Shown here piece by piece: positions 1,885 through 30,191 of a stretch of 39,366 nt of DNA. The notes below the pieces were generated by a model. The model was not told where the DNA came from. It was given only the letters and a program-made list of their open reading frames with translations, and ran no database searches. Location: assembly GCA_023139045.1 (NCBI GenBank), contig JAGLOJ010000002.1, positions 1 to 39,366 of the forward strand, written 5' to 3'. This DNA comes from Candidatus Sabulitectum sp. (lineage in GTDB: Bacteria; Fermentibacterota; Fermentibacteria; Fermentibacterales; JCC-6). Made by a program: the position numbers and the translations under genes. The first letter of the stretch is position 1; every line of letters starts with the position of its first letter.

Positions 1885-3678
1885 TCACAAATTCTCCGAT
1901 TCAAGCATCTCCCGGAACACTCCCCAGAACTCCAGAAACCCATCGGGAAAAATATCCAAAGAAGAAGCCCCCTCCTCCAGATCCAGCACCAGCTTATCCA
2001 CAGCAACCAGCTGCGCGGGATCAGCAGCCAGAGCTGCAACAATATTCTCAAGCAGTCTTAAATCCCCGGAGGAGGATCGTCGAATGAATGCAGCAAAGGC
2101 AGAAGAGTTACCATGAGCAAAATAACTCGATTCATAACCTGACAAAAGCATCATCAGGTATCGAAGAAAATCTTCACTACGCCGTATCACAGATCGCAGG
2201 ATGAAACCGGAGCGTTCCTCCGGCATTCCCAGAACAGGAATGTTCAATGAAAACCGCAGCACATCAGCACCGCACTTAAGAGAGAACGCCACAAAGCCTG
2301 TTAATGACTCTGGTGCAACGCATGGTAAAAGAACACTGCCACCCAAAACAATCTCATCAACAGCAACTGCACTGCTCTCCTGCATTGTTACCAGCCATAC
2401 AGATAATGAAACACCTGCAGGCAACTCAACAGCTCCTCCGAACCCAAGCTCCATCTGCCATCCAGAATCAGCAGAGACACATTTCAAAGACAGTGGAATA
2501 CCAAGCAACGAAACATGTACGTCTGCAAGCACCTCATCAGCCAAAGAATCTGAGACCAACTCAGAGTCATCATCAGTAAAATCAACCAGCATATCTTCAA
2601 AACCGGCCACAAAAGAATCGGGTTTCCCAAGAAACCTATCTTTACCAACCACTTCAACCATGAACTCAACATTCACACCTTTAAGAGCCCTTGTAGTGGC
2701 ATTTGCTGAGCCTATAACCACATGGGTGTTGTACCACTCACGGTACACATAAACTTTTGCATGCAGCCCTATTTCACCAGCACATAAATCATCATCACCT
2801 TCATCAGTCTCAGCAGCCTCATGCAGCACCAGTTGAGACCCAAAACGATCACAGGCAACTGAAGTAAAAGCGGAAGTACGGGAAACAACAGCCAATGGAG
2901 CAGCAGATGTAGCAGCAAGAGACTTAACAGCCCACTCACTTAAGAACGGAGACACCACCACAAGAGATGATGACCAGGGAGGCATCCACCCGCCATGACC
3001 AGGCCCGAGCAAATGAAAGAACAATGCAAAACATCCCGGAGGCAACTCCCATTCAACGGAATCAACCATAGAAGCAAGAGAATCAACAACAGAAGCAGTA
3101 GCAGATGAAACACCAACATGAGCCATACCGCACAGTGACCGAAGAAAAACAGTAAGAGGTGCTGAAGCAGCAGCAGAAAAAGAAGAAGAAGAAACAACAG
3201 AACCAGAGGAAGCAGACCCAGGCTTCCCATCCAGCACCACAGCAGCATCCCATGAGTTATCAGAGGTAATGTTCCGAGATGACACCATCAATCGGAACAC
3301 ATCGGGTAAATCACCGGAGGGATCAACAAAACGCAGTAACCAAACCTTAGGGTGGAATGAGCCCCCCAAGGGAGGATCCACTTCAATCACAACTTCTTCA
3401 AGCATTGAATAAAGAATGTGATTCTCCCGAGGCACCAGCATCCTGCCTCTTTCGCAGAACACCCGCAAACTACCTGTTACCCTCCGCAGTAAATCCAGCA
3501 GAGCAACACCATCAGTTATCTCAGAATCACCCACAACAGGCAAAGCCAGTTGCAGAGGCACTGCAAGCAGCGTAAGAATATCAAGAGAGTAGGTGGCAGC
3601 TACACCGGAAGAAAACACCATACCCAGCGGAGGAGACAAGAAGTCTGTGAACAACCTCCGGGTATCAGGGCTAAGCAT
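1885..3678 (-). CDS. Phospholipase D-family (double HKD) protein, putative nuclease
   Basis: This 597-residue protein carries two HKD-type half-sites. The first is His109-Pro-Lys111, followed by a Ser-Ser-Arg-Asn-Ile-Thr segment near residue 136. The second is His306-Ala-Lys308, followed by Gly-Ser-Ala-Asn-Ala-Thr near residue 326. In PLD-family nucleases two such half-sites form one active centre that cuts phosphodiester bonds through a covalent histidine intermediate. The ATG at 3678 overlaps the stop of the DUF6361 gene by 8 nt and has GGAG seven bases upstream; two nearer-upstream ATGs are worse placed. The protein is rich in Ser, Ala and Val between the half-sites. In DISARM the PLD protein DrmC is a shorter gene directly after drmB. 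This longer protein, paired with DUF6361 and across an IS element, is a functional analogue at best. Confidence 0.85.
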   Translation of the reverse strand: MLSPDTRRLFTDFLSPPLGMVFSSGVAATYSLDILTLLAVPLQLALPVVGDSEITDGVALLDLLRRVTGSLRVFCERGRMLVPRENHILYSMLEEVVIEVDPPLGGSFHPKVWLLRFVDPSGDLPDVFRLMVSSRNITSDNSWDAAVVLDGKPGSASSGSVVSSSSFSAAASAPLTVFLRSLCGMAHVGVSSATASVVDSLASMVDSVEWELPPGCFALFFHLLGPGHGGWMPPWSSSLVVVSPFLSEWAVKSLAATSAAPLAVVSRTSAFTSVACDRFGSQLVLHEAAETDEGDDDLCAGEIGLHAKVYVYREWYNTHVVIGSANATTRALKGVNVEFMVEVVGKDRFLGKPDSFVAGFEDMLVDFTDDDSELVSDSLADEVLADVHVSLLGIPLSLKCVSADSGWQMELGFGGAVELPAGVSLSVWLVTMQESSAVAVDEIVLGGSVLLPCVAPESLTGFVAFSLKCGADVLRFSLNIPVLGMPEERSGFILRSVIRRSEDFLRYLMMLLSGYESSYFAHGNSSAFAAFIRRSSSGDLRLLENIVAALAADPAQLVAVDKLVLDLEEGASSLDIFPDGFLEFWGVFREMLESENL

Positions 3679-4891
3679 CGTCATTCTCCAACCCACTAAA
3701 CAAATCACCCAAAAGCCCAAGCACCACAGGCCACCTGTAATTCAACCGGTACATCCCCGAAGAACCACCCCATTGAGCAAGAGCACGCTCATTCAAGAAT
3801 CGTGACCGTGACCGCCCCTTCTTGAAAATCTCACGGTTCCGCACCAGAGACCGGGCCAATGACAAAGAAAGTAATGAAAAGTCTGAACAAACCAGATCTC
3901 GCCAGGCATAAACAAAACGAATGGTAGCAGCAGACACACCCGGCACCATTGCGAAGAATGTACCAAGATCCCATCCCCGAATACATTCAATCTCACCCAT
4001 AACAGAAGCTTCCCATAAACGAAAACGATCAACCTTACCTGAACGATCATGAGAGCCAAGCTCTTTACTCTCACTTAGCTCAGCCAGCATCACATTGTAA
4101 AGAATAGATGCCCCATACATAACCAGAGAGAACAACCTCGCTTGCTCCAACTGCCACACAAGCACATCAGGCAAAGCACCGGAATACTCCCATGGAAATG
4201 AAGAAGGAGCCAATGAAGAAGAAAAAGCAAGATGAGCAAGCAAACTGGAAGGATGACTCGCCTTAATACGCCCCTGAATAAACAAAGACTCTGAGCGCCT
4301 CATCCGAATATCAAGAGCAGATGGAAAATCACAAGGAGCAGCAGGTAAATCCGGACACCAGGTATCCAGCCCATCCAGAGAAACATCATCATAATTCTCA
4401 CGGGACCGGCGATACAAAGCAGCAGCACGGGAACGGGCGGCATACAAAGCATCAACATCAGCACCATACTGAAAAGACGAAGACGAACTCAACCGTATCC
4501 CCCAGCTACCCAGACCATTCCAGTAAATTGAACTTGGTAATCTCTTCACGGAAGATCCGGCAACAGACCCGATTATTCCCTGCTCACCCAAAGAACCGGT
4601 AAGCAGCACAGGAATCAGTGACCGCTCAAAAGAAGAAACACGGGAAGCAAAAGAAGAAGAGTTAACCCGAAGCTCTTCCAGATACTGATAAACCCACGGC
4701 ACAATAAGCATGTACCGTAGCCTTGTAAAAAGAGTACTTGTACCAGGGAACAACAAATCAGAGAGGGAGTCACGGATAAATCCAAGACCAAGTTCATCCC
4801 GGCTTTCCCTCTCTTTGAAAAGAGAAAGGATACGGTTGGTTCTTTCTTTAGCAACGGGGTCGTGGTCGAGCCACGCTATTGAAGAGGGCAT
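3671..4891 (-). CDS. DUF6361 family protein
   Basis: This 406-residue protein has the N-terminal signature I associate with DUF6361: Met-Pro-Ser-Ser, then Trp-Leu-Asp, a segment Arg-Asp-Glu-Leu-Gly-Leu-Gly, then Leu-Phe-Pro-Gly-Thr-Ser-Thr and Thr-Arg-Leu-Arg-Tyr leading into Val-Pro-Trp-Val-Tyr (about residues 35-70). The biochemical function of the family is unknown to me. Such proteins commonly sit next to a PLD-family gene, as here, where the following gene overlaps it by 8 nt. It starts 30 nt after the asparaginase-like gene with only a weak purine-rich AGAGAGAAG upstream. The central part is Ser-rich. Co-function with the PLD protein is inferred from the overlap. Family assignment is fairly confident; function is not. 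Confidence 0.8.
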   Translation of the reverse strand: MPSSIAWLDHDPVAKERTNRILSLFKERESRDELGLGFIRDSLSDLLFPGTSTLFTRLRYMLIVPWVYQYLEELRVNSSSFASRVSSFERSLIPVLLTGSLGEQGIIGSVAGSSVKRLPSSIYWNGLGSWGIRLSSSSSFQYGADVDALYAARSRAAALYRRSRENYDDVSLDGLDTWCPDLPAAPCDFPSALDIRMRRSESLFIQGRIKASHPSSLLAHLAFSSSLAPSSFPWEYSGALPDVLVWQLEQARLFSLVMYGASILYNVMLAELSESKELGSHDRSGKVDRFRLWEASVMGEIECIRGWDLGTFFAMVPGVSAATIRFVYAWRDLVCSDFSLLSLSLARSLVRNREIFKKGRSRSRFLNERALAQWGGSSGMYRLNYRWPVVLGLLGDLFSGLENDDA

Positions 4892-4921: not shown

Positions 4922-7003
4922 CTATGCTCTACACTTTTTAAGCAAATATCTTGTATTCCATCCCCTTCTAATATCACTGTCTGCACCAAGAATCTGAAGC
5001 ATATTACCTATTTCGTAGAGTTCTAGATTTGTTCGGCTTTTTGTTGCCAATGTCTTCATTTCAACATGAATTCCTTGATCAGTAGCCTTACCAATCAATT
5101 TCAAAGACGGATGACTGAACGCAACGGCTTCATGTATCAGCCGCTTAGCAATAAGCCCAGGGAATCGATCTGCTAAAAATCGAAAGGCCGAACGATTATC
5201 AATAGAATCAAACATCTCACGCCAAGTTCCACTAAGAACCTTCTGATCGACAAGTAGCTTAATGCCTGCCATTGCTGTTTCTGCTGCTACATCAAGCCGT
5301 TGGACATCACAAGGTAAGCCATCATCAAGATGTACCTTCTGAAATATGTCAGTAATTTGGTTTCTAAGACGGAGCAATGCAGCCGATTTAATTTCAGATG
5401 ACAACTCGCTATATACAGCAGACTTCAATACCGACATCTGCATTTGATAGTTAACACACAAATAGCCTAAGATTATCTCTGAATCAATTTTCTTTACATG
5501 TTCGGTAACAGCTTCTACTAGGTTCTCCAATGAATCAGGTAAATGATTCAATGATACTCCAATATCTCCTTCTTTCTGCAGATAATCACTTACGATCTCA
5601 CTGATTAGAGTGTTAGGAGCAGGTATATGACCATCTCCAAATCCATAAATACTCAGTGTTTTTTTCCTCATTCTCTCGCTTTGATTCAATCTATTAATAG
5701 CATCTTCGTATACTCTCGATTGAATATTCGGATAAACTACAACTAGCTCCTTCCCATCTACCCTTTCTGGAAATGTCTCGTAGTTGATCCATTCAGGGAG
5801 CTCGGATGTCTCAAATATTTCACCGGCAACATTTGTACTCATCCATTTTATCAAATTGTTGCCTGTCACATTTCCTCCTAACAACCAAGACAGTTTTTCC
5901 CTTGCCTTTGAATGAGATAAGCTCCTGTGAATTAGGTTAAGAAATTTTTCTCCGACTTCCCTTTGAGCCCCTCTGTATACTTCAAGGGATCCAACCCAAA
6001 GCGAACATCCTTGCTTATGTAATGAAAACAATTCCATCACTATCTTCTTAAAATTGACATTCCTACTAAAGTTGCCCTGAATAACTACTCCAATATTTTT
6101 GTTATCCAGTGATGGATCTGAACGATAATAATTCACTCTTCTCTTAAGGTCATCTATTATCGTTATTGATGTAAAAATATCTATTACTTCATGTTCGACG
6201 ATACCATATTCATTTGAAATACTAGCATCAAATGGGTGTTCCTTTCCAGTTTTCTTTATTTTTATAAGATATTCTTTATCTAGGCGAATGTGATAGTCTT
6301 TTCCTGTTATTTGTCCGACAGGAGCCGGGAAACTGAAGAAGTAATAGCCTTCAGAGTTTGGAATAGTGTATACCTTTGTTAATCTGCTTGCTATATGTAT
6401 ATCCTGTCCTATTAGCACGTATACACCTGTTGGTAGCATGTTATCTGTATCTATGAATCGCTCTTTTGCGGCATAGAGCGATTTTTTTAAATTACTTCTT
6501 GCATCTGATTTGTCACAATCCAATGTGTCAAAGCTTGCAGTAAATATTATAGGTACATTGATTCCCGCATTTGAGACTAATAGTGACAACATCATACTGC
6601 TTGTTTGAAGAGTATCTGTACCATGAGTGATAACAATTCCTCCTCTTTCTAGTTTGATGCCTTTCCTCATCAATGAACTTTCTATTTTTCTTTTTCTCTC
6701 AATAATTCTACTGACTTTTTGAAAGAGAGTACTCCATTCTTCTTCTCCAACATTGCTACTATCTGGAGGTCTTTCAAACACATCTTCGTAAAGAATATCT
6801 ATATTTAGTTTTTCCATTTCCTTTTTGATTTCTTGGATAATCTGCTCAACCTTCTTAGATGGCTTCCGTTCCTTCTTGCCAGACATATTTATTGTTCCAC
6901 CAGCGCCTAATACTATTACGCTTTTGTAATATGCTGCATCTGTATTCTCCATTACATGTATGCTACATTCATTTATTCCCAAACTATCATGCTTATCGCT
7001 CAT
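4922..7003 (-). CDS. Asparaginase-like amidohydrolase with large insertion and C-terminal extension
   Basis: This 693-residue cytoplasmic-looking protein carries the key elements of bacterial L-asparaginase/glutaminase-type enzymes. They are Gly-Gly-Thr37-Ile after a hydrophobic strand, His-Gly-Thr129-Asp130-Thr, a Ser-Asp-Ala-Arg-Ser-Asn-Leu segment near 168, and Lys210 in Arg-Leu-Thr-Lys-Val-Tyr. These match the two catalytic threonines, the Asp and the Lys of the family. A second-domain-like region (Val-Val-Val-Tyr-Pro-Asn, then Gly-Phe-Gly-Asp-Gly-His-Ile-Pro) appears only near 420-463. About 100-150 residues are therefore inserted between the halves, and some 200 unrecognised helical residues follow. 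Normal asparaginases are about 330 residues. I chose the second ATG (7003) because AGAAAGG lies seven bases upstream; the ATG at 7009 is too close. It opens block 2, next to the IS21 element. Whether it cleaves asparagine, a nucleotide-linked amide or a protein side chain is unknown. Confidence 0.82.
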   Translation of the reverse strand: MSDKHDSLGINECSIHVMENTDAAYYKSVIVLGAGGTINMSGKKERKPSKKVEQIIQEIKKEMEKLNIDILYEDVFERPPDSSNVGEEEWSTLFQKVSRIIERKRKIESSLMRKGIKLERGGIVITHGTDTLQTSSMMLSLLVSNAGINVPIIFTASFDTLDCDKSDARSNLKKSLYAAKERFIDTDNMLPTGVYVLIGQDIHIASRLTKVYTIPNSEGYYFFSFPAPVGQITGKDYHIRLDKEYLIKIKKTGKEHPFDASISNEYGIVEHEVIDIFTSITIIDDLKRRVNYYRSDPSLDNKNIGVVIQGNFSRNVNFKKIVMELFSLHKQGCSLWVGSLEVYRGAQREVGEKFLNLIHRSLSHSKAREKLSWLLGGNVTGNNLIKWMSTNVAGEIFETSELPEWINYETFPERVDGKELVVVYPNIQSRVYEDAINRLNQSERMRKKTLSIYGFGDGHIPAPNTLISEIVSDYLQKEGDIGVSLNHLPDSLENLVEAVTEHVKKIDSEIILGYLCVNYQMQMSVLKSAVYSELSSEIKSAALLRLRNQITDIFQKVHLDDGLPCDVQRLDVAAETAMAGIKLLVDQKVLSGTWREMFDSIDNRSAFRFLADRFPGLIAKRLIHEAVAFSHPSLKLIGKATDQGIHVEMKTLATKSRTNLELYEIGNMLQILGADSDIRRGWNTRYLLKKCRA

Positions 7004-7032
7004 AATCATACCTTTCTCTATTCATTAATCTG

Positions 7033-7061
7033 TTTATATATTTACTGCTCACGCCGGTCAT
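7033..7061 (-). promoter_or_regulatory. Possible hybrid promoter at IS end, reading into asparaginase-like gene
   Basis: On the minus strand ATGACC (7061-7056; 4 of 6 to TTGACA) lies inside the outermost terminal repeat of the IS. TATAAA (7038-7033; 5 of 6 to TATAAT) lies just outside it. The spacer is exactly 17 nt. Transcription would begin near 7026, giving a short leader with AGAAAGG before the ATG at 7003. IS21-type elements are known to create promoters from outward-facing terminal -35 boxes. This case is inference from sequence only. Confidence 0.4.
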
Positions 7062-7118
7062 TGTTTCCAGCCAGACCGGTCGAAGTTTCCAGTCTTTTCG
7101 CCGGAGTTATGTTGCCAG
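7046..7118. repeat. Left terminal repeats of IS21-like element
   Basis: Three adjacent imperfect copies are visible: 7046-7070, 7071-7092 and 7093-7118, with cores CGCCGG or ACCGG and endings such as TTTCCAG or GTTGCCAG. A fourth degenerate copy may follow near 7125-7137. The copy at 7097-7118 matches the inverted copy at 9289-9310 in 21 of 22 positions. These should be the IstA binding sites. Confidence 0.8.
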
Positions 7119-7181
7119 AATCAACCCCGGTTTTCCAATCAATAATCTGAGAAAAATCTCTCACTTCAGCGGTACAGTCCA

Positions 7182-7973
7182 TTAATTGCTTTTGTCTTCT
7201 TCCTGCTTTTTATTGCCGTCTTCTCCGAGGTCGGAATAAACCTTCCTCATGCTCTCTTTCATGTCTCCGCTTCCCAGTTCAATCTTGTATGAACTATGAA
7301 CAATTCTGTCGAGAATTGCATCTGCTATTGTCGGGTCTCTTACAGTCTCATACCATTTGTCCGGGGGCAGCTGAGATGAGACAATGGTGGAGCGGCTGCC
7401 GTGCCGCGCCTCAATTATCTCAAGAATTAGCAGGCTCTGCTTGCTCAAAAGCTTTTCAAGCCCCCAGTCGTCAAGTATAAGTAAGTCCGGTTTGGTGAGT
7501 TTGTTCAGATCCTTTTCCAGTTCTCCCAGCTCCCGAGCTACTTCGAGCTCGCGGAGCAGAGGGGACATTCTTTTGTACAAAACAGAGTAACCGCGCATAC
7601 AGGCCTTGTGACCCAGGGCACAGCTCAGCCAGGTTTTGCCGGCACCGGTGGCTCCAGTTATCAGGATACCTAAGTGATCATGGATCCAGCGGCATGATGA
7701 CAAAGACATCATCAGGGATCTGTCGATACCTCGATCACTCCTGTAATCAATATCCTCCACGCAGGCTGACTTGTGTTTGAAGCCTGCCTGCTTAATTCTT
7801 CTCGTCATGAGGCGGTTGTCACGGGCAACCACCTCACGATCCAGCATCATGCCCAAACGATCATCAAAAGTGAATTTGCTGATATCCGGTGTTTCCTGCT
7901 GTTCTTCATAGGCATCAGCCATTGAATACAATCTGAGTGATTTCAGTTTCTCATGAACGGGATGTGATAGCAT
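7182..7973 (-). CDS. istB: IS21-family helper ATPase IstB
   Basis: This is an AAA+ ATPase of about 263 residues that assists the IS21 transposase with target DNA. The Walker A motif is Gly-Ala-Thr-Gly-Ala-Gly-Lys-Thr and the Walker B is Leu-Leu-Ile-Leu-Asp-Asp-Trp-Gly. The N-terminus, starting Met-Leu-Ser-His-Pro and followed by Lys-Leu-Lys-Ser-Leu-Arg-Leu, is typical of IstB. I chose the ATG at 7973 because GGAGG lies just upstream and the homology begins there; the frame is open to 8045. It appears full length, unlike its partner istA. On its own it cannot move the element. Its length and key motifs agree with the IstB family. Confidence 0.92.
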   Translation of the reverse strand: MLSHPVHEKLKSLRLYSMADAYEEQQETPDISKFTFDDRLGMMLDREVVARDNRLMTRRIKQAGFKHKSACVEDIDYRSDRGIDRSLMMSLSSCRWIHDHLGILITGATGAGKTWLSCALGHKACMRGYSVLYKRMSPLLRELEVARELGELEKDLNKLTKPDLLILDDWGLEKLLSKQSLLILEIIEARHGSRSTIVSSQLPPDKWYETVRDPTIADAILDRIVHSSYKIELGSGDMKESMRKVYSDLGEDGNKKQEEDKSN

Positions 7974-8186
7974 TATTACCTCCAGGGTGCTAAATGATAA
8001 ATATTTCTTCCTGACGAATAGCCTCTTCAATAATGCGGGCAACAACTATAGTGCCCGGTTTTTCTTCCTCTTTTCTTTTTGTTTTCCATCGGCCAGGGAG
8101 CGGGAGGCGTAGTCCTGAACTCCTGGCCGAACGGTTGCCGGGGACATGAGCTTTGCTCATCTTTCCTCATTCTGAATACCAATACA

Positions 8187-9180
8187 TCAAACGAAATAGC
8201 TGCCTCCTCGAATGTTCTCATGCTCTGTGATATTCTCTTTTTCTTCATCGAAAGGCAGTTCAGTCTGGTTGTACAGCTCGTATTTGAGCGTATTTGAAAC
8301 GGTGTTGTATCGGTAGGAGGTTTCATAACGGAGTACATATCCGCAAGCCTTTTGAAAGGATTCTTCACCGTATTTCTTTTCAAGGCTCATCATGCCCAGG
8401 AGCAGGCGAACAGAGAGTGACGGATGCTTCTCCTGCTTGTACATTTTTCGGGCAAGTTGTACTGCACTGCCATCCAGAGACACCAGCCATTTTCTTACCG
8501 TTGAGGGCATCTTCTTGTATGCAAGATGTTCAGGGGGCATGTGCTCACTATATGTAGAGAGTCTTCCTTTACCTTTCAGCCTCATGTGGCTTGCAATCCG
8601 CTTTTCCTTGTAAAAGATTTCCACACCACTGGCGGTAACTCTTACATCCACCTTTTTACCCTTGTAATCATGATGGACACTGTACCGACAGAGTTTGTAC
8701 TGGATGTGATAATCCGGACCAACCTTACACATTTTCCAGTCTGCGTACTCAAATCTCGTTGCAGGCAAAGGCTTGAGAGCAGGCAGATCAAACTCTTCAA
8801 ACTGGCTCTGACGACTGCCCTCACGAGCAGAGAATACTCTGTTGTTGAGTAGCTCGAGCTTTTCCCGGATAGCCTCATTCAGCTCCTGCAATGAGAAAAA
8901 TGTTCTGTTTCTAAGTGGTGCTACTACCCACATTTGCACCAATTTTACCGCATTCTCGACAAGTCCTTTGTGGATAGACAACGGCTGCAAGAGCCTCATC
9001 ATCCAACTGCAGCAGTTCTTCAAAGGTGTAGGGTGAGTCGGAGAATACTCTGATGAATCCTTGAATCTTGGTGTGCGATAATCCAACAAACTCACTCAGC
9101 TTACGAGAGCTTGTTACCCCCTCAAGATAATACTTGAGAATTCTTCTTGTCCTTTTCAACAAAGTCCTCTTTCTTGCCAT
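8187..9180 (-). pseudogene. istA: IS21-family transposase IstA, internal deletion with frame change
   Basis: The gene begins at ATG 9180 behind a near-perfect Shine-Dalgarno (GGAGGTGATC). It encodes the N-terminal helix-turn-helix region to about residue 70, ending Ala-Leu-Ala-Ala-Val-Val-Tyr-Pro. Near 8975 the homology jumps to another frame at His-Lys-Gly-Leu-Val-Glu-Asn-Ala-Val-Lys, the segment carrying the last acidic residue of the DDE core, and then runs to the normal C-terminus at 8187. IstA proteins are usually about 490-510 residues, so roughly 450-500 bp is missing, including the first two catalytic Asp residues. The original frame stops at 8911. The product cannot be an active transposase. 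The truncated HTH peptide could still be made and bind the IS ends. Confidence 0.85.
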
Positions 9181-9288
9181 GATCACCTCCTGTTGAGTTC
9201 AGGAAATGATACTTGGTTTAGAACCTTGCCGCTGTCGTTTTATTGATTGATGTGAGATTTCTCAGAGTAGCAGATTTAGATCATCCTG

Positions 9289-9419
9289 CTGGAAACATAA
9301 CTCCGGCGAAATTGGAAACATATCTCCGGCGTATGCATCTTTCAGCTTTGCCTGTCCGAAATATTGATTGTCGCTCATCACTCTGGCGAGTTTGTAAACT
9401 TTCGACTGCGGCGTATGCA
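9289..9419. repeat. Right terminal repeats of IS21-like element
   Basis: Inverted copies of the left-end repeats are found here. The clearest are 9289-9310 (21 of 22 matches to 7097-7118 when inverted) and 9311-9334 (ending in CTCCGGCG). Weaker copies lie near 9380-9394, and the outermost ends at 9419 in CGGCGTATGCA. The region lies upstream of istA and probably includes its promoter. Confidence 0.75.
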
Positions 9420-9428
9420 ATAACTAAC

Positions 9429-9457
9429 TGGACAAATTAGATGATCCATACTATACT
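9429..9457 (+). promoter_or_regulatory. Sigma70-like promoter for the 115-residue gene
   Basis: TGGACA (9429-9434; 5 of 6 to TTGACA) and TATACT (9452-9457; 5 of 6 to TATAAT) are separated by an ideal 17 nt. The start would fall near 9464, about 58 nt before the ATG at 9523. The promoter begins only 10 bp outside the IS end, so it survived the insertion intact. This is the best promoter match I found in the window. Confidence 0.55.
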
Positions 9458-9522: not shown

Positions 9523-9870
9523 ATGAATTCTGTAACAATCAAGGATCTTTGTGAACACACTAACCGAAAGGAATTAACGCTTACAATTAAGGATTTCCTT
9601 AAGAAAGAAGAATATTTGGATAGTGGAACCCTTACAGAATGGACCCATCTTGGAAGTCGTGCATGTCAATTTGTTATATATGCATTAGTTTCAATACTGT
9701 CTGCTTCAATTAATTCCACAGACAGCGCAAGAATGCTAAAAACTTTAAAAGAATATTCATGGAGCACGCTTGACTTAACTTCTTTTACGCAAAAGGGACG
9801 CTTAGATTTAGCTGATGTGATTTACGAAGAGTTGTGGCAAATGGCCCGTGTAATTCATTGTAATGAATAG
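9523..9870 (+). CDS. Hypothetical 115-residue protein on the opposite strand
   Basis: This is the only credible plus-strand gene here. It has its own ribosome site (AAGGTG at 9511-9516, six bases before ATG) and a good promoter upstream. The product is mixed-charge: a Lys/Glu-rich N-terminal third, a hydrophobic central helix (Phe-Val-Ile-Tyr-Ala-Leu-Val-Ser-Ile-Leu, about residues 50-60) and a helical C-terminus ending His-Cys-Asn-Glu. I see no clear helix-turn-helix, zinc motif or export signal and do not recognise a family. It is divergent from block 2 and convergent with the 3' end of the large operon. A regulator or immunity-type small protein is a guess. Confidence 0.6.
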   Translation: MNSVTIKDLCEHTNRKELTLTIKDFLKKEEYLDSGTLTEWTHLGSRACQFVIYALVSILSASINSTDSARMLKTLKEYSWSTLDLTSFTQKGRLDLADVIYEELWQMARVIHCNE

Positions 9871-10022: not shown

Positions 10023-11822
10023 CTACTCATCAGAAGTCCGCCAGAATTCCTGTATTACTTTACGGTTGAGGTTATCATTAAAGAATGGACAACCAAAAGT
10101 AACATAAAGACACCTTTCGCAAGCATATGGCTCACGTTGATGACATAGTGGATCGTTTTCGCAGCTCCATATCATTTCATACGAACTGTTTAGCCATTGG
10201 ACGATTCTGTTATTTAGCAATGTCCAGAAAGCTCCTAATGTAAAGCTTTTCAGATTATTTGCGTATAGAGCAAATGTGAGTGTTTCAGGAACTATCCACT
10301 CTGCGATAGACGTCTCAGCAAACCCGATTTGTCCATCATTCAGTGTATTTAAAAGTGCATGTGATATTGAATGTACCAAGGTCTCGCAGGCTTTTGCGGG
10401 TTCGGGATTAGACTCTCTCTGTGCAAAAATGTTGAGGATTTCTGTTCGTGCTTCAAGTTGATTTTTAGGATCCACCTTAGAAGCCACTAATTGAAGATTC
10501 TGCAACCACTTGAAAACTCGAATTGCAGAAAGATTAATTAATACTGCTTCTGTTTTAGAGGCAATTGTAAAAATAGGTGTTTTACCATCATATTCATTTC
10601 TCTTGGCAAATCCTCTAATTCGACCTTGCCCACGCCTCTTCACGCTGCGTGTATAGCCAAAAGCCGCCATAGCAATGGGAAAATTCCATGTGACTGATAT
10701 TTCTTCTATTCCCAACATACTTGCTCTGGCTGCGCCTTCACGTATTTTTTTAGCTCCCACTGCGCTTCCACGATCCTCTGCCATCCTTTCAGCATCCAGC
10801 AGAGTAAGTCTCTTAATTTCTGACTTATCAAATAGAATTGTTCTTTCCAGAAGTGGAGTTGTTTCTCCGAGCTCAATAATCTTGCTATCTATATTGTTCA
10901 GAGCTTCTACTCCAATATTCAGAGGACCTTGTACTTCCTTTATATTTCCTATTTCATCTTCAGTAAGTACTCCTGAAGCTCTAAGCTTATTCTCAAAATC
11001 AGACCAATCATCAACAGATTTCCTTGTACTAATTCCAGAAGTACGATCGAAATCTTCCATTGCCTGACCTGCAGAACTCACAAGTCCAAGATAGAAAGCA
11101 GTTGATATTCTGCCCTTCTCCGGATGGCGCTGAAGTTGATTATAAGTAGTAGCTTCAAAATTGATCATTGAAATATGATGAGGATAATATGTTCGTGTAT
11201 CTTTAACAGTATATGCTCTCATCATTGAACGCCCATCAAGAGCAGGGAATGCACCGCAATTACAAGGACTCTGCAGTGTTCTCCTAATAATACTACCATT
11301 ACATGCTCTACATCTGAATACAGATGTCCGAAAACTACCTGTATCGTCAAAATATACATGCTTATATCCATGCTCAGGAATAGTACACTTGGGTGTGTGC
11401 ATCTTCTTAATAGCCCCACACTCATGGGCGCTAAAATATCTCAGCTGACGCATTCTTCCACCACAATGCTTACATCTAGGACTAGTCACTATATCATCTA
11501 TTTTCCAGTAGAGTTGTATCCTGCTACAATTACTACGATTACATTCAAACACAAGCGGCCATATCTCCCAATATACTACTTCTGGTGTTATAATCTGATA
11601 TTCTGACATTTCTACTCTTGATGGCATTGGCAATCCAATTCGATCTTCCTGACTCCATGCTGTAAGATATGTATCAATAGCACTTAATAGAGCAGTCTTA
11701 TTAATGCTTGCTCTTAGCTCGCGACCGTGTATAGAATAAGATTTTACAACGAGACCACTTTCATGAATAAACACTGATTCTGGAAGGCAAGAAAAAATAA
11801 CCTGTGTACGACTCCGTTGCAT
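10023..11822 (-). CDS. drmB: DrmB-like DUF1998 zinc protein
   Basis: This 599-residue protein has an N-terminal cysteine-rich region of several CxxC pairs (about residues 90-195), including Cys-Lys-His-Cys-Gly-Gly, Cys-Arg-Ala-Cys and Cys-Asn-Cys. Its C-terminus has the DUF1998 pattern: a His-Ser-Ile-Ser-His-Ala-Leu-Leu helix, then a Cys-rich tail (Cys-Glu-Arg-Cys-Leu-Tyr ... Phe-Gly-Cys-Pro). In DISARM, DrmB is the DUF1998 partner of helicase DrmA, and the two form a DNA-engaging complex. Here the ATG overlaps the DrmA-like stop by one base (TAATG), fitting coupled synthesis of the pair. It ends the ten-gene operon. Canonical drmC does not follow; the next gene is unrelated and on the opposite strand. 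The symbol rests on domain plus context. Confidence 0.75.
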   Translation of the reverse strand: MQRSRTQVIFSCLPESVFIHESGLVVKSYSIHGRELRASINKTALLSAIDTYLTAWSQEDRIGLPMPSRVEMSEYQIITPEVVYWEIWPLVFECNRSNCSRIQLYWKIDDIVTSPRCKHCGGRMRQLRYFSAHECGAIKKMHTPKCTIPEHGYKHVYFDDTGSFRTSVFRCRACNGSIIRRTLQSPCNCGAFPALDGRSMMRAYTVKDTRTYYPHHISMINFEATTYNQLQRHPEKGRISTAFYLGLVSSAGQAMEDFDRTSGISTRKSVDDWSDFENKLRASGVLTEDEIGNIKEVQGPLNIGVEALNNIDSKIIELGETTPLLERTILFDKSEIKRLTLLDAERMAEDRGSAVGAKKIREGAARASMLGIEEISVTWNFPIAMAAFGYTRSVKRRGQGRIRGFAKRNEYDGKTPIFTIASKTEAVLINLSAIRVFKWLQNLQLVASKVDPKNQLEARTEILNIFAQRESNPEPAKACETLVHSISHALLNTLNDGQIGFAETSIAEWIVPETLTFALYANNLKSFTLGAFWTLLNNRIVQWLNSSYEMIWSCENDPLCHQREPYACERCLYVTFGCPFFNDNLNRKVIQEFWRTSDE

Positions 11823-14800
11823 TATTTCACTCCCGTCTTCACTACTTTTGCTTTCCTTGCTAATTTACTATTAATGTCATTGTCATCACCTAGAAGAGCA
11901 GCATAGGCTTTTCTACTATATGTTACCGCAGTAAATTCTACTAAATCATCAATACTCCGAAAACTACTCAGTACACCCGATCTAAATAACTCTGTTGAAT
12001 TATCCGTATTGAACGCTTGCATTTGCAATAATTCAACATTCTCCCAGCGACTAACGACCCTTTGAATTAAATCTTTTTCTAGCTCCTCTTCATTCACGCC
12101 TTCTATATAGGATTTATATGTCGACACAAGTCTTTCTCTCAAAATTGGAAGGAGAATGGATGATTTTGCCCTCCACCACTTCGAAAGGTTTCGTGTTTTC
12201 TTGATTCCCTCTTCTGGTCCAACAAACTCATCCTGCCTTGACATGTCCCAAAGATGGGCCATAATGATTCCAGGTAAAGTCTTATCTGCACCAAAAAGCG
12301 CAAATCTGTTTACCGGAACTGGTTCCACCATACGATCAAGGAAATGATGAAAACTATTAAAATTAGTATAAGTTGACCTTTGCTTCCGATTAAATGTATC
12401 AAATACTGTCACTACTAAACCAATGTGAGTTCTTCCAGCACGACTTGTTGCTTGTATGTAGTCCGCAATAGTTGGAGGAAGACCAGTCATAACTAAAATA
12501 TTCAGTCTGCTTAAATCCACCCCATGGCTAATAACAGATGTTCCTACTAGTGCTCTAATACGTTTTGCTCTGGACATATCTAGCGTGTCTTTCTCAACTC
12601 GTTCAATTGTGTCAGCCAGCTCTGAAACAATCACTTCACCTGTTAATACGCGGTAACATATGGTATCCTGACCGCTATTCTCAAATTCCTCTGAAAGCAT
12701 TCCGAGCTCATCAGCGATATAATCACCATTAGTTTTTGCATTTACATAAGCGAGAGAAACTTCGTAGTTGAAAAGAGCATCCTTAAATAACTCACCATCA
12801 ATCTTTTTATACCCAATGCATTTACCCAATTCATCTTTCGAGGCATCTTGCATCTCTTTTACAGTTTTTAACAATTCAGTTTGAACAATTGCGGAAACAT
12901 CTGCTTTCCTTCTATAGTGTGGAAGTATTCCAACGAAGAGACGTTGTATGGTAGACTTCTCGATGTTGTAAAAGCTTCTTTGCAATTTGAAACCCTGACT
13001 TGGAAAATAGCGAGGGCGTCGCGCATAAATTTGTCTGAGTTGATCCTCATACAATTCAATTGTAGCTGAAGCTGCAAGTATTTTTGAGGGTAACCCTGAA
13101 GGGCCTCTTCTTTGCAAATCAGTCAGCATGCCTTCGTAATGTGCATTAAATACACCCAATTCCTCTTTTAGCAGATGCAACTCATCTTGAATTATTAAAG
13201 CAGGTACAGGATCATACCAAGATTCTTCTACTCTATATTCGCGCTTTGATCTATTGCAATGTTTACCAGCTAAGCATTTACCATTTCTGAAAAAACTGAA
13301 CCAACCGTGATCTGGGCAGAAATATCTAGGCCCATGAGTAAACTGAGTAAATTCTCCGAAAAAGGCAAAACCACTTAGTTTATCAATAGTACCAACAATC
13401 ACTGATGGCATATAGCGGTAAACTTCATCATCAGTCACATATAGTGGCAAATCACGCAAACATGATGTACAAGTATGAAAGAGACGAATGCTTTCTTTTT
13501 CGGGACGCAATCGAATTGTTTTTTTTCCACAATAAGGACATTCTGCAATTAGCTTGTGCTGTTCAAGAGTGTTAGCTTCTATTGATTCAGCACTGTCAAT
13601 CCCTGGCCACCATCCTCGCTTATTCAGGAGACTATTAGGCGTATTTGAACCCCCAACAAGATAACCGAGTGAAAATGGTTCTCCATTTCCCAAAACCTCC
13701 TGAATTCTAATTTCTTCCGCTACAATCAAAACTCGCAGAACACGAAACAACTGCTGAACACTAAGCATCCTTAATGGAAACTTAAGCCATGCTGTCACTC
13801 CTTTAGATTTCCCCCGAAGTCGATCATAAAACAATGCAACAACTAACAATCCCAAGTAAGCCTCTGTTTTACCGCCTCCTGTAGGAAACCACAATACATC
13901 AGCAAATTCGTGCTCATACTGGTACTCAAGATTGTTGGGTGACTCTCGAACAGCAAGTGATGGTAATAGCGTCACAATGTAAACCAATTGAAATAGACGC
14001 CACGAGTCATAGTTTCGCTTTGCATTAACATTGTCAAACACTTTATTGCTAAGCTGAAAAGCGCGCTTAAGTTTGCTATCTTTGTTCATAGCATCACGCC
14101 CTAATTCAAATCTCTTTATCTCTTCAGCAAACATAGCTTGCTCAACGCTTGACGCTTCCTTTATGCTTATTGGAGCTGTTTCTATAAATACATTCCATTC
14201 AGTGAGGTAGTCCTTCATAGCAAGACTCACAGCTTCTAAAATGCTTTCTGGTTCTAGCGAGAGGTCTGCCCAACGGAGGGATGGAACATGATCACAACGC
14301 GACTCTACTGTTTTTTTAGAATATCTTGGCAATGTTGTAGATACAATACAACCATCTTCTTCAACAGCAACGCAGCCCTTCCCATGACCAATTATCGGAC
14401 ATGAATCCTTATATCTGTAATCATCTGGAGAAAGTATGAATCGTTGATATTTAATCTCTGTCTCTTTTCCTGGGCTTATCCTTATCCGGCAGTCATATAT
14501 AGAGAGATTTTGGAATGGATACTCCTTCAGAATTGTTGAATTTGCTAAAGAAATATCTGCAAGAAAACTCCCATTTCCGAGTGGTTCAGCAAACGCTATA
14601 AGTTTAACGTTGGGATAATTTTGTAAGTACTCAGGATCTTCAGCAGCCTTAATCGCATCCCAATAACTGCTTTCATTTTGGAGATCTACCATAGCCAATG
14701 TTCTAGTTCGTCCAAGAAAGCTCCTCGATGCATCTCGATTAGTGAAATGTGCGTTTATCACATCCTTAACTTCCTTTAAAATCACTTCTGATATCTCAAT

Positions 14801-15349
14801 GTGTTCACCATTTATTGGTATGTGGAGTTGTATATCTCTAACGACTATATTGTGCCTCCGCCATGTGCTTACCAATCGACTTGTGCGTTTTCTGGGTTGC
14901 GATTTGGCTTCTTCTCTTTCATTAATACAATCAGATTTTAGTGATTCGTCCTTTTCAATAAAATCGGAAGATTCCTCTTCATGATATTTGATTATTGGGT
15001 TGTGGTACTTAATTTGTTCCTCTCTAGACGCATACTCTTCCATATAAATAGCAAAATCTAAGTCAACAGAAACTTGAATAATAGCAGTGTTTGTTTTAGC
15101 AACAAAAACAATCCCAATAGATTGAAAGGCTTCCGTATGATCTACTGCTGCTACATCTGTCATAACTTCTTTTGAAGAAACATTCTCTTTTGATACCGCA
15201 AAGACTGGATCTAGTACCCCTAGCACAACGTTCTGTTTGGGTTCCCAACCAGGCGGATGTGTATCTCCACCTCTATCTGCAAGGCGTTGTTCCAGCCGAT
15301 GAATAAGCTTCTCAACAATAAGCTGTTCAAGATTGCCTCGGGGTTTCAT
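11822..15349 (-). CDS. drmA: DrmA-like superfamily 2 helicase
   Basis: This is a 1175-residue helicase. After a long N-terminal region (about 480 residues, with an acidic low-complexity stretch near 120-150) come Walker A Pro-Thr-Gly-Gly-Gly-Lys-Thr at 489-495, a zinc-ribbon-like Cys-Pro-Tyr-Cys/Cys-Thr-Ser-Cys insert near 615-640, a DEAD-box variant Asp-Glu-Leu-His, Ser-Ala-Thr, and motif VI Gln-Ala-Thr-Ser-Arg-Ala-Gly-Arg. The order and the cysteine insert fit DrmA, the core DISARM helicase. It begins 11 nt after the DrmE-like gene, whose final codons (AGA AGG TAG) may supply the ribosome site, and is joined to the DrmB-like gene by a one-base overlap. It is expected to translocate on incoming DNA and discriminate modification state together with DrmB. 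The N-terminal part is not recognisable to me. Confidence 0.82.
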   Translation of the reverse strand: MKPRGNLEQLIVEKLIHRLEQRLADRGGDTHPPGWEPKQNVVLGVLDPVFAVSKENVSSKEVMTDVAAVDHTEAFQSIGIVFVAKTNTAIIQVSVDLDFAIYMEEYASREEQIKYHNPIIKYHEEESSDFIEKDESLKSDCINEREEAKSQPRKRTSRLVSTWRRHNIVVRDIQLHIPINGEHIEISEVILKEVKDVINAHFTNRDASRSFLGRTRTLAMVDLQNESSYWDAIKAAEDPEYLQNYPNVKLIAFAEPLGNGSFLADISLANSTILKEYPFQNLSIYDCRIRISPGKETEIKYQRFILSPDDYRYKDSCPIIGHGKGCVAVEEDGCIVSTTLPRYSKKTVESRCDHVPSLRWADLSLEPESILEAVSLAMKDYLTEWNVFIETAPISIKEASSVEQAMFAEEIKRFELGRDAMNKDSKLKRAFQLSNKVFDNVNAKRNYDSWRLFQLVYIVTLLPSLAVRESPNNLEYQYEHEFADVLWFPTGGGKTEAYLGLLVVALFYDRLRGKSKGVTAWLKFPLRMLSVQQLFRVLRVLIVAEEIRIQEVLGNGEPFSLGYLVGGSNTPNSLLNKRGWWPGIDSAESIEANTLEQHKLIAECPYCGKKTIRLRPEKESIRLFHTCTSCLRDLPLYVTDDEVYRYMPSVIVGTIDKLSGFAFFGEFTQFTHGPRYFCPDHGWFSFFRNGKCLAGKHCNRSKREYRVEESWYDPVPALIIQDELHLLKEELGVFNAHYEGMLTDLQRRGPSGLPSKILAASATIELYEDQLRQIYARRPRYFPSQGFKLQRSFYNIEKSTIQRLFVGILPHYRRKADVSAIVQTELLKTVKEMQDASKDELGKCIGYKKIDGELFKDALFNYEVSLAYVNAKTNGDYIADELGMLSEEFENSGQDTICYRVLTGEVIVSELADTIERVEKDTLDMSRAKRIRALVGTSVISHGVDLSRLNILVMTGLPPTIADYIQATSRAGRTHIGLVVTVFDTFNRKQRSTYTNFNSFHHFLDRMVEPVPVNRFALFGADKTLPGIIMAHLWDMSRQDEFVGPEEGIKKTRNLSKWWRAKSSILLPILRERLVSTYKSYIEGVNEEELEKDLIQRVVSRWENVELLQMQAFNTDNSTELFRSGVLSSFRSIDDLVEFTAVTYSRKAYAALLGDDNDINSKLARKAKVVKTGVK

Positions 15350-15360
15350 ATCAGTCCACG

Positions 15361-17742
15361 CTACCTTCTCGTAAGACTACCAATTTTATGCAAAGGGATC
15401 TCCTCTGACTCTCCAATTTCACGGACAGTACGAACCTGAAATTCATCTAGTAGTTCATCCAAATCAATATTACCCATAATTCTTACTAATCTTGTCAAGC
15501 TTGGTCCTTGCCCAATAGTAGCCTCTCGCATTGCTCCTGAAAGCAATCTGCCAACCTTGCGATGATTTGAACGTATTTTTGAAGCCATTTTTGCTATTTT
15601 TCTATACTCAAGAGTGAGTATCTTATCATTGGACAGTAAACCAATTCTTGCAATATCCTCTTCTTTGTTTGGTGCTATAGTTGTTCCAAGTGCCCATAGA
15701 CGTATAGATTGCCCAGAAACGGAGGAACCTTTCTGCCGCATAGAGTCCTCAACATTTTCCCAACTTTCATCACACTCTTGATAAATTTTCCAGACAGCTC
15801 TTCTAAGTCGCATCAATACAGTTTCATATGTTTTGTAATCAGTTCTTGAGTGTACAACTTGAATAATTCTTTGGAAAAGATTCTCTCGCCCTTCTCCACG
15901 AGGAATGATAATCTCGTCACCGGTATGAAGCTGGGACGGCTCGAGGGACTGATGTATTGATCGGCGTAAAACATCGATTTTCATTTTTTCTCCTACCCAC
16001 CATGTTTCCTTTCCTGGCTCTAAAAGAATTGGGAGTGCTTTGCATAATACTGCTGAATGGGATTGATAAGGATGTTTTTCTATCAAATCCTCTTGTTCAT
16101 TAAAAAAGACATCAAGACTAAATTCAAGTGGATGATCAGTTTCAGTAGAGATTTCTTCTGTTGATGGTATGAATTGGTAGTTGTATACAGTCTCAATCAT
16201 ATCAGGCCATTTAAAAATTGGGGGCAAGCCGGCTTTATATAGGCTGAACACTCCAGATGATGCCTCGTAAATATTTTTCTTTTGCTGGCTATAGATATTG
16301 CTAAGAGAATGTTGCTCATATGGATAAACAAGAAAGATTCTTTCCGTACTCTCACCACTCCAAAGAGCACTCCTATGCCATGGCGCGGGAGAGCCTGGAT
16401 AAATTTCTATTCTGCGGTGAGTTGTCCAAGGAAGCCTAAATCCCATTGGTAACCAAAACAAATTTCCTTCACCCTCTGTGATGTCAAAATTGAAGCTTGA
16501 GAGATCTGTTGCAAGAGCATTGCCAGCGGCTTGGTTTGTCACTCTTATAACAACGCATACATCACTCTCATACTTCAACTCTTCCAAGAGCAAAGCAAGT
16601 GTAAATAGCTTTGGATTTTCTTCCTCCATCATTTCATACAAAGAAAAAACATTATGTCGTAAGTCTGCCCATTCCGTTTCTTGAAAACAATGCCATTCTC
16701 CAGTATGCTCCCAATTAGTTGCTCCTTTTAGCCAAGTATGTAGGCTACTCATAGAAGTACTCCTATGATCCATTGCAGCCCACTGGTTATACTCAGCTAT
16801 TGTTCCGAGACAAGAAGAAAGATTGTTCAGAAGCCTTCTAGCTATCTTTACAGGCATTGGGAAATCCTTACTAATCTCTTTAGCCTGAAAAATACCTGTA
16901 TAACATTTCCTAAAAAGGCGATCTATTAACGCAGCATTACACACCGCTTTAGCTACAGGCGACTGCCTGCATGTAAACAATCTATTTGTCGCCAGCAACG
17001 ATGGCCCGTCCTCTATATTTGGACTTAAAGGGATTCTACTAATTAAATGAGGAGCCCAAGGGCAGATAATATACTCGCGCTGCGATGATTTTAGGATATG
17101 TGTTGTTTCCTCATCACCAATATCTGAGATTACTACAACTTTTGTTGAATTATTTGCCTCAGCCCACTCTAGAGCGCATAAGAGGATTTGTGAGGCTTTA
17201 AAGCTTGTCCGGTCAATTATAACGACTCCTGCATCTATTCCCTTTGGTAATCTAGGCCAACCCACTCGAGTATTCAGGTAAAGAAAAAGATTTGTTTTGT
17301 GCTGGTTAATCACTTCTATTTGATTTCTTGTATTTACAATACGGCCATCTGATCGAAGACGATGAGACATCAGTCCGTCTGCTAAGTTGAGAGAGCTAAT
17401 TTCAATATGGCCTAGTCGCTTTAGAATTTGAGTATTCATGCCAATGATAACAACAGGACCTGAGAAATTAAGTGTATTTGATGGCTCAAGCTGATTAGAG
17501 CAAATTCGAACCATCTGCGTAATCAATCCGCAAAATATGCTGAAGTCATGTTCTCCTCGTGGTAATTGAAACTGGAGATTACATAGTTGCTTCCTTAGTA
17601 AACTTGTTAGAACGACTGTAGATGCAGTATCAATTGGGCTAAAAGTAATTGGATAACCTCTATCCTTTAACTCCATTTGGGGGAGCCTATCAACTAGCAT
17701 CCTTGAGATCTTATCAGAAGGTTGTATTTTTTCAAGCCACAA
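15361..17742 (-). CDS. DrmE-like protein of DISARM-type locus
   Basis: This protein has about 793 residues if begun at the TTG at 17742, which follows the upstream stop by 2 nt and has GGGAGGTG eight bases before it. An ATG at 17811 would need a 67-nt overlap and is less likely. There are no enzyme motifs I can name. Hydrophobic strands such as Ala-Gly-Val-Val-Ile-Ile-Asp near 190 and Val-Val-Val-Ile-Ser-Asp near 220 suggest an alpha/beta core. The C-terminal part has Gly-Asp-Glu-Ile-Ile-Ile-Pro-Arg-Gly-Glu and Ile-Arg-Leu-Trp-Ala-Leu-Gly segments that I associate with DrmE, the unknown-function gene of class 2 DISARM. Position directly before drmA supports this, but my family call is from memory. 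A divergent inactive helicase is an alternative. Confidence 0.6.
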   Translation of the reverse strand: MWLEKIQPSDKISRMLVDRLPQMELKDRGYPITFSPIDTASTVVLTSLLRKQLCNLQFQLPRGEHDFSIFCGLITQMVRICSNQLEPSNTLNFSGPVVIIGMNTQILKRLGHIEISSLNLADGLMSHRLRSDGRIVNTRNQIEVINQHKTNLFLYLNTRVGWPRLPKGIDAGVVIIDRTSFKASQILLCALEWAEANNSTKVVVISDIGDEETTHILKSSQREYIICPWAPHLISRIPLSPNIEDGPSLLATNRLFTCRQSPVAKAVCNAALIDRLFRKCYTGIFQAKEISKDFPMPVKIARRLLNNLSSCLGTIAEYNQWAAMDHRSTSMSSLHTWLKGATNWEHTGEWHCFQETEWADLRHNVFSLYEMMEEENPKLFTLALLLEELKYESDVCVVIRVTNQAAGNALATDLSSFNFDITEGEGNLFWLPMGFRLPWTTHRRIEIYPGSPAPWHRSALWSGESTERIFLVYPYEQHSLSNIYSQQKKNIYEASSGVFSLYKAGLPPIFKWPDMIETVYNYQFIPSTEEISTETDHPLEFSLDVFFNEQEDLIEKHPYQSHSAVLCKALPILLEPGKETWWVGEKMKIDVLRRSIHQSLEPSQLHTGDEIIIPRGEGRENLFQRIIQVVHSRTDYKTYETVLMRLRRAVWKIYQECDESWENVEDSMRQKGSSVSGQSIRLWALGTTIAPNKEEDIARIGLLSNDKILTLEYRKIAKMASKIRSNHRKVGRLLSGAMREATIGQGPSLTRLVRIMGNIDLDELLDEFQVRTVREIGESEEIPLHKIGSLTRR

Positions 17743-17744
17743 TG

Positions 17745-19652
17745 CTAAAACACCTCCCTTTGATAAATCCGATCCACTCTCTCCCTTACATCTCTCATAT
17801 AGGTATCCCAATTCCCAAGAGAATCAGTCCCATCCATACCAATAATCAAAGCGGCAGCATACGAAGCACTCATTACATCGCCGTCTAAATACGAATCAGA
17901 ACTATCTAGTACTTGAATTGCCAGCTTGGCAGCTCTGTTTACAATGTCCTTGAACGGAGAGCGCTTCTTTTTTACAAATGATAGGACCGCATCACATTGG
18001 ATTGGTTGGTGAGATCTGCTTTTAATAAGAGTATTCGGCATTTCCGATGGCACCAAAACAACAGATTTCCCAGAAACCCCGAGGTTTTCTAAGGCTTCGG
18101 CTAGCCCGGCCCACGCATCTAGCAGTGTATGGTGGTAAGTAAAGACTAGTGGAGATCCAGGTTTCAGTGCTGCAGTGGATGCTCTAAACACATTATTCAG
18201 TCCTTTGGTAAACGCCTTTCTGTCATCACTCTGCACACCTTTACTCGAAGTCGGATTTTCTAATCCACACCAAACCATCCATGCATTTAAGGCACCAGCA
18301 ACATCATCGTAGAATAACCTGTTGAAATAGGGTGGGTCAGTAATAACGGCATCCACACTTTCTGGCGGAAGTGATAGTTTTCCACTATCCATACAAAGAA
18401 CAGCTACATCCGCGGTATTGGATAATACTTGTGACACAGAACCCACTTTCAGACGGTTACCCCTATCTTCAATAAGGGTTTGGAATGCTTGTTCCGAAGG
18501 TTTAGTCCTAAGCTTGTACCATGATCTTGGATTTCCAGAACGAGATCTGCCTTTTTCCCGAATAACTGGATTAGACTCGTATGAAATTGATACAGGGTGT
18601 AGTATCGGACGACTAAACGCCTGACGAATTGATCCAGTTCCTAAACCCTTAAAACTTGAAAGTCTACAATGGTACTCAAATATAGGGGAAAAGGCGAGAG
18701 CAAGTTGGCGTCTCAGAGAGATATCTTCCACGGAGTGAACTCGATCAGCCAAACTTGAAGCGAAAACAAGTTGTCGTGGGTGGAATAGTTGAGCCCAATC
18801 ACGAAATCCCCAAGCAAGAACTTGAGCCGTTGACTGTCCGCTATCTATAGGAGAGGGAGTAAGTGAGACCTTAAGGTTATCCGCAGAGTGTGCTAACTTG
18901 AGATTTTCGCTTGAGGGTTTGATGAAAAGACGCTTGCCTTTTGTATTTAACTCAACCGCTACTAGAACAGTTCTAGGAATTGACTTTTCTTCATTTCCGG
19001 GTATGCTGGGATGCAATGGATTATGACATTTCTGACATTTGAAGCGCCCCGATACTGGAGGATGAAGAGAGAATCGACATCCACAAGAACATTTAGCATT
19101 AGCAGCATTTACGTCTTTTACTTCTACCACATTTCTATCACGAGGACAAAGAGCCCATCCACGAGGATAGCGCTTTGAATAGGCATGTTTCACTATTAGT
19201 GTTCTTTTTAGAAGCAAAGATGGATAACCACATGTAGGGCAATCAACTTCATAGGCCCAAAAGTAACCAGTGGGGCTGTTAGTACCCCCATATAATGGCT
19301 CGATAGATTTCAGAGTATCACTAATAATATTTCTATACTTTGTTTCAAGATCAGGATGACGATGCTCAAAAGAAGAGGATGCTAAATTTGCAGCAAAAGG
19401 GTTAATTTCAACTCCTATGACTCTGTGTCCAAGACGAAGAGCTTCTCCCAAGGTAGTACCACTACCAGTAAAAGGATCAAGAACCAACCCTGACTGCACA
19501 TTCATTGCTTGCTTGATCATCCAGTTAGTGACCACTGCTAATCTACGGGCCCACCATTTAGCGTTGTAGTAAAGTGGTTGCTCAAGATGACGCTTCGTTC
19601 GCGTCTGAAGAGAAATAGCCCTCAACTTTTCGTAACCGGTTTTCATACTCAT
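17745..19652 (-). CDS. DNA methyltransferase (DPPY type, DUF1156-like) with zinc ribbons
   Basis: This is a 635-residue amino-methyltransferase. The SAM-binding motif Asp-Pro-Phe-Thr-Gly-Ser-Gly-Thr-Thr is at residues 59-67, followed by Gly-Val-Glu-Ile-Asn. The catalytic motif Asp-Pro-Pro-Tyr is near residue 430. Between them is a cysteine-rich block (about 138-215) with Cys-Pro-Thr-Cys, Cys-Ser-Cys-Gly-Cys and Cys-Gln-Lys-Cys pairs, typical of the DUF1156-like methylases that accompany large helicase defence loci. It should methylate N6-adenine or N4-cytosine of host DNA as a self mark. The ATG overlaps the upstream methylase stop by 4 nt (ATGA). It is an extra methylase beside the DrmMI-like one; neither class of DISARM normally carries two. 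Target sequence cannot be predicted. Confidence 0.85.
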   Translation of the reverse strand: MSMKTGYEKLRAISLQTRTKRHLEQPLYYNAKWWARRLAVVTNWMIKQAMNVQSGLVLDPFTGSGTTLGEALRLGHRVIGVEINPFAANLASSSFEHRHPDLETKYRNIISDTLKSIEPLYGGTNSPTGYFWAYEVDCPTCGYPSLLLKRTLIVKHAYSKRYPRGWALCPRDRNVVEVKDVNAANAKCSCGCRFSLHPPVSGRFKCQKCHNPLHPSIPGNEEKSIPRTVLVAVELNTKGKRLFIKPSSENLKLAHSADNLKVSLTPSPIDSGQSTAQVLAWGFRDWAQLFHPRQLVFASSLADRVHSVEDISLRRQLALAFSPIFEYHCRLSSFKGLGTGSIRQAFSRPILHPVSISYESNPVIREKGRSRSGNPRSWYKLRTKPSEQAFQTLIEDRGNRLKVGSVSQVLSNTADVAVLCMDSGKLSLPPESVDAVITDPPYFNRLFYDDVAGALNAWMVWCGLENPTSSKGVQSDDRKAFTKGLNNVFRASTAALKPGSPLVFTYHHTLLDAWAGLAEALENLGVSGKSVVLVPSEMPNTLIKSRSHQPIQCDAVLSFVKKKRSPFKDIVNRAAKLAIQVLDSSDSYLDGDVMSASYAAALIIGMDGTDSLGNWDTYMRDVRERVDRIYQREVF

Positions 19653-30167: not shown

Positions 30168-30170
30168 TTT

Positions 30171-30191
30171 TCAGCTTTCAGCTTTCAGCTT
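30171..30191. repeat. 7-bp tandem repeat at the end of paralogue 3
   Basis: Three copies of a 7-bp unit (AGCTGAA on the minus strand) cover the last codons. Sister genes end Lys-Ala-Glu-Lys with a stop overlapping the next GTG. Here the additional unit shifts the frame, so the protein ends Lys-Ala-Glu-Ser and the stop falls 3 nt before the next start. Confidence 0.7.

Follow-up and report, generated by a model that had tools for sequence, protein, structure and literature searches.

The window, by which we mean the whole stretch of 39,366 nucleotides analysed here, is an entire contig (C112) of a 3.7-Mb genome of Candidatus Sabulitectum sp. On its minus strand, a single intact reading frame at 4922..7009 encodes an asparaginase-fold protein of 695 residues. 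The genome carries one copy of this frame, and the analysis covers this one sequence, which comes from a fragmented assembly. The frame named in an earlier note on this DNA is real, being open for 695 codons, and this length bears out the claim that the protein is about twice as long as a normal asparaginase. A second ATG at 7003, which would give 693 residues, is better spaced from an AGAAAGG-like site than the start at 7009, and translation plausibly begins there. Residues are numbered here from 7009; the numbers of the earlier note are lower by two. Downstream, on the same strand and after a gap of 30 bp, lies zacA (3671..4891), followed by zacB (1885..3720, also minus). Upstream, starting about 40 bp away, the gene is bordered directly by the remnant of an IS21-family element (limits approximately 7050..9430), in which istB is intact, istA is broken and inverted ends are found at 7096-7118 and 9289-9311. 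Across this remnant are the DISARM-like genes drmB, drmA and drmE (10023..17811, minus). The described proximity to DUF6361 and PLD genes was correct: the zacA product matched DUF6361 in Pfam (7e-52) and ZacA in PADLOC (1e-109), and the PLD gene zacB matched ZacB in PADLOC (5e-140).

The Pfam Asparaginase family matched residues 31-215 of the frame (4.2e-24), and residues 26-255 matched a profile built from asparaginases of related genomes with an E-value of 1e-23. In a blastp comparison, residues 29-398 aligned, at 24.6% identity and E 1.8e-17, with a type I asparaginase of Clostridium oryzae over its full length. Residues 367-401 resembled the helices that close the C domain of GatD (hhalign E 5e-5), with a score of 34.1, whereas the best of 40 shuffled controls reached 18.7. 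Because of these two alignments, to the C. oryzae enzyme and to the GatD tail, both asparaginase domains are taken to be complete by about residue 403. By sequence comparison, the stretch from residue 29 to about 403 has the fold of a class 1 type I L-asparaginase, divergent but complete in both domains. The N domain (residues 29-255; 6245..6925, minus) keeps all but four of the strongly conserved positions. The C domain (residues about 289-403; 5801..6145, minus) is divergent and has lost the G-x-G and DMTxE motifs, and the alignment places a small interdomain insertion at residues 266-288 (6146..6214, minus). Among the 35 columns that are at least 85% conserved in 54 ordinary asparaginases, 28 are kept; the seven departures are F314 and R316 in the C-domain motif G-x-G, one gap, and A36, S137, A158 and Y222 in the N domain. 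Two insertions stand out against the ordinary enzymes, one of 14 residues (108-121) and the other the 23 residues between the domains. The curated NCBIfam cut-offs were missed both for asnASE_I (75.3 against 260.5 bits) and for GatD (56.4 against 324 bits).

When AlphaFold was given the single sequence, the model reached a pLDDT of 34. With 80 asparaginases supplied as the alignment, the N domain was predicted confidently (pLDDT mostly above 90) and the C domain fairly. The earlier note had proposed that the predicted structure be compared with asparaginase folds, and Foldseek matched the model to full-length L-asparaginases in the PDB (E about 1e-13, target TM about 0.75). This match is supportive and partly circular, because the alignment behind the model consisted of asparaginases. 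The remaining residues, 404-695 (4925..5800, minus), form a C-terminal extension that is predicted to be mostly helical at low confidence, its pLDDT being mostly below 50. The extra length had been ascribed to an insertion between the two halves together with a helical C-terminal extension. The extension stands, with its helicity as a low-confidence prediction, whereas the interdomain insertion is only about 23 residues long and the bulk of the extra length is the extension of 292 residues.

Class 1 asparaginases have five catalytic residues, Thr, Tyr, Thr, Asp and Lys (PMC8256714). In the window protein Thr39 at the nucleophile position (6893..6895), Thr131 and Asp132 of the HGTDT motif (6614..6619) and Lys212 (6374..6376) are all present on the minus strand. 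Likewise, the substrate-binding pair Asp83-Ser84 is kept, which corresponds to Asp84-Ser85 of the guinea pig enzyme when the DS motifs are aligned. A catalytic role of the Tyr is described in PMC8256714 and PMC12128190. The E. coli type II enzyme has this residue in its N-terminal loop, as Tyr25. The guinea pig type I enzyme uses Tyr308, contributed by the adjacent protomer, for which an activation of the nucleophilic Thr has been proposed from simulations (PMC12128190) and which, by its position in the sequence, belongs to the C domain. All 54 comparison enzymes have this Tyr, 42 in the C-domain column and 18 in the N-terminal loop, with some having both. When the window protein was compared with these 54 asparaginases, the catalytic Tyr was found in neither loop. 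Its N loop reads TINMSGKKERKPSKKVEQ and contains no Tyr. Its C-domain loop reads R-EVG where others have, for example, RYEVG, and is several residues shorter, so that the type I catalytic Tyr falls into a deletion at residues 350/351 (5957..5962, minus). Under six alignment settings, no Tyr of the window protein came to lie in the C-domain Tyr column, which was occupied by a gap or an Arg. The only nearby Tyr of the C domain is Y345, a position at which other family members vary in the aromatic residue. The catalytic residues had been described as intact, on the strength of Thr37, Thr129, Asp130 and Lys210 (here Thr39, Thr131, Asp132 and Lys212); these four are in place, but the fifth is absent. 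Without this Tyr, a depletion of free Asn through the textbook mechanism is less probable, but possible.

Two explanations bear directly on these residues. The protein may be a pseudo-enzyme: its asparaginase fold would then bind a ligand or serve as a scaffold, with no hydrolysis, and the function would lie in the extension. The losses of the catalytic Tyr, of G-x-G and of DMTxE and the exchange T36A point in this direction, but the other four catalytic residues and the Asp-Ser pair for substrate binding have been retained, which would be uncommon for a dead enzyme, and we regard a pseudo-enzyme as unlikely. The other possibility is a cytoplasmic asparaginase of the ordinary kind whose C-terminal domain is regulatory, comparable to the mammalian ASPG, and which is carried here by chance. 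The earlier argument that no metabolic asparaginase looks like this protein is overstated, since the mammalian type I asparaginase has a C-terminal domain of about 200 residues (PMC8256714). The full-length type I fold and this mammalian precedent thus fit an ordinary enzyme, whereas the absence of the catalytic Tyr and the other asparaginase genes of the genome do not. Two ordinary members of the family are encoded elsewhere in the same genome, L001, of the archaeal GatD type, and L002, so the metabolic need is already covered; long GatD-like genes of the archaeal type occur both in this genome and in its relatives. We therefore consider an ordinary asparaginase quite improbable.

ZacA, ZacB and ZacC take their names from the Azaca system (Millman et al. 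2022). Azaca is listed with a PLD-like domain in a published table (PMC10952713). ZacA and ZacB are encoded side by side in the window; the ZacC helicase does not follow directly after zacB, and zacC lies on another contig (G000:C9), where it adjoins a frame resembling an IS21-type transposase. The asparaginase gene was absent from all seven annotated plasmid Azaca loci that were compared. Six of these have the gene order zacA, zacB, helicase, and for the seventh a helicase gene is not listed; one further record carries no gene annotation. In the sister species G001 and G002, the homologous DNA begins at window positions 4890 and 4892, which is the start codon of zacA. The DNA upstream of zacA is unrelated among the three loci, and in neither sister species was an asparaginase gene found upstream of zacA. 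Since the homology with the sister species begins at the zacA start and the other Azaca loci are without an asparaginase, the gene is very probably not part of Azaca.

Several further features were seen around the zac genes. A 484-residue frame at 15-1469 (minus) was considered as ZacC and rejected, as it had no helicase match and zacC is found on contig C9. It matched no family or PDB entry, and its KACAHVAL stretch might be a cysteine-peptidase motif. A short remnant at 1791-1861 matches DNA that, in G001, marks the end of an AbiEi-like gene located after zacB, and the stretch also occurs in G002. The Azaca operon is scattered in the genus (L047, L150). In G002, about 4.5 kb separate zacA from zacB, and zacC matches in several pieces.

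On the upstream side, drmC was not found downstream of the drmB gene in the window. At related drmE-drmA-drmB loci of Streptomyces, Rubrobacter and Halarchaeum plasmids (L143-L145), the PLD gene drmC comes right after drmB, and no asparaginase gene was found after drmB at these loci. A role as an accessory component of the Azaca or the DISARM-like operon could be suspected from the common strand and the 30-bp gap to zacA and from the third-position G+C of the gene. This is 0.31 and resembles that of drmB, drmA and drmE (0.28-0.32), while zacA and zacB have 0.40-0.42. The same values are weak evidence for a common arrival of the asparaginase gene with the drm genes. An accessory role is nevertheless highly improbable: the asparaginase is missing from the sister-species zacAB loci and the plasmid Azaca loci as well as from the plasmid DISARM loci, where the PLD gene drmC takes its place, and the IS21 remnant separates it from drmB. 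Judged by the loci compared, the asparaginase-fold protein is not a component of either adjoining system. drmB was not found in 116 related genomes, and the island in the window is therefore regarded as a recent or rare acquisition.

The rest of the island was annotated as well. Between drmB and the IS21 remnant, a frame of 115 residues lies on the opposite strand (9523-9870, plus) and gave no significant family match. The genes at 10023-26309 (minus) are DISARM-like and combine class 1 features, a DrmMI-like methylase and a DrmD/DpdE-like helicase, with the class 2 protein DrmE, without DrmC. They are followed at 26314-33910 (minus) by four consecutive paralogues of about 614-649 residues with HATPase_c_4 and Fic-like_C domains, preceded by SLFN_AlbA_2 in three of the proteins and by DUF4062 in the fourth. 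Four such genes in tandem, flanked by helicase genes, are an unusual arrangement. A DruE-like helicase of 1733 residues with MZB and DUF559 domains occupies 33859-39060 (minus).

A search for homologues had also been proposed, and no relative of the same architecture was detected in the collections scanned. The extension (residues 404-695) had no match in any family or structure library or genome searched. Peptide-pattern scans of genome and viral collections with the whole protein and with its C-terminal part returned no relatives, and tblastn of plasmids and phages found no relative with the extension. The same was true of whole archaeal genomes (385, then 168, 4, 10 and 40); one weak match among the 385 (E 0.006) covered a segment that resembles the GatD C domain. 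In genome scans for which an asparaginase alignment or the HGTDT core served as the query, only ordinary asparaginases were among the matches listed. A duplicated C domain at residues 405-480 was considered because YPNIQ...GFGDGHIP resembles the beginning of the C domain of GatD (hhalign E 0.006). It was discarded, as with one profile its score of 21.2 barely exceeded the 20.4 of shuffled sequences. In a separate observation, three loci of Treponema/Spirochaetaceae (L071, L084, L116) contain frames of about 800 residues, measured between stop codons, in which the asparaginase motif lies around residue 550, and these are possible fusions of a long N-terminal part to an asparaginase.

The absence of relatives bears on the proposal that the gene encodes a single-gene abortive-infection effector, in which the C-terminal part would sense infection and activate the asparaginase domain, which would drain Asn, Gln or another amide until growth stops. 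Nearly all other identifiable genes nearby are defence genes or transposases, the nucleophile and the substrate residues are kept, and an added domain would correspond to the usual layout of sensor-effector fusions. On the other hand, the genome, viral, plasmid and phage scans found no relative in defence islands, the catalytic Tyr is lost, and among the papers searched none was found that connects asparaginases with phage defence, so an effector seems doubtful. A particular form of it, a single-protein immune effector in which engagement of the C-terminal sensor upon infection would supply the missing base to the asparaginase fold and deplete an amide metabolite (Asn, Gln or a signal), is distinctly unlikely.

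Taken together, our results point to an orphan, altered asparaginase-fold cargo gene in a defence island that has been shuffled by IS elements. The explanation that we tentatively favour, at somewhat less than an even chance, is a horizontally acquired stand-alone cargo gene outside Azaca and DISARM, with a divergent asparaginase fold, a new extension and altered hydrolysis. In a protein of this kind, an Asn-like alpha-amino-acid amide would be bound in the N-domain pocket with Thr39 as the putative nucleophile, and hydrolysis of the amide would be altered, slow or conditional. The missing base might come from the C-terminal extension or from a partner, and the extension would thus act as a control on catalysis. 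If the protein is active, it would be an asparaginase that works without the usual Tyr and would bear on how the nucleophile is activated in Thr-nucleophile amidohydrolases. If it is a defence effector, infection would be stopped in a new way, by depleting an amino-acid amide. If it is neither, the orphan cargo gene is a warning against inferring function from the position in an island alone.

The closest resemblance is to the class 1 type I L-asparaginases of Thermococcus, Pyrococcus and Clostridium. The window protein shares with them the order of N and C domain, the Asp-Ser pair, the motifs GGT, HGTDT and SDAxxNL, the Lys and the tail KLxWxLG...AGEI. It differs from them in having no catalytic Tyr in either loop, in the loss of G-x-G and DMTxE, in the insertions of 14 and 23 residues and in the extension of 292 residues. 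The mammalian ASPG (60 kDa lysophospholipase) likewise has a C-terminal extension behind its type I catalytic part, but in that enzyme ankyrin repeats make up the extension and there is a catalytic Tyr, whereas the extension of the window protein matched neither ankyrin repeats nor anything else. Archaeal GatD, the subunit D of the Glu-tRNA(Gln) amidotransferase, also has the two-domain fold and a similar C-domain tail; unlike the window protein, it has its own domain at the N terminus and lacks a C-terminal extension of this kind. Azaca (ZacABC) and DISARM are the immediate neighbours of the gene, and at the other loci compared an asparaginase is a component of neither.
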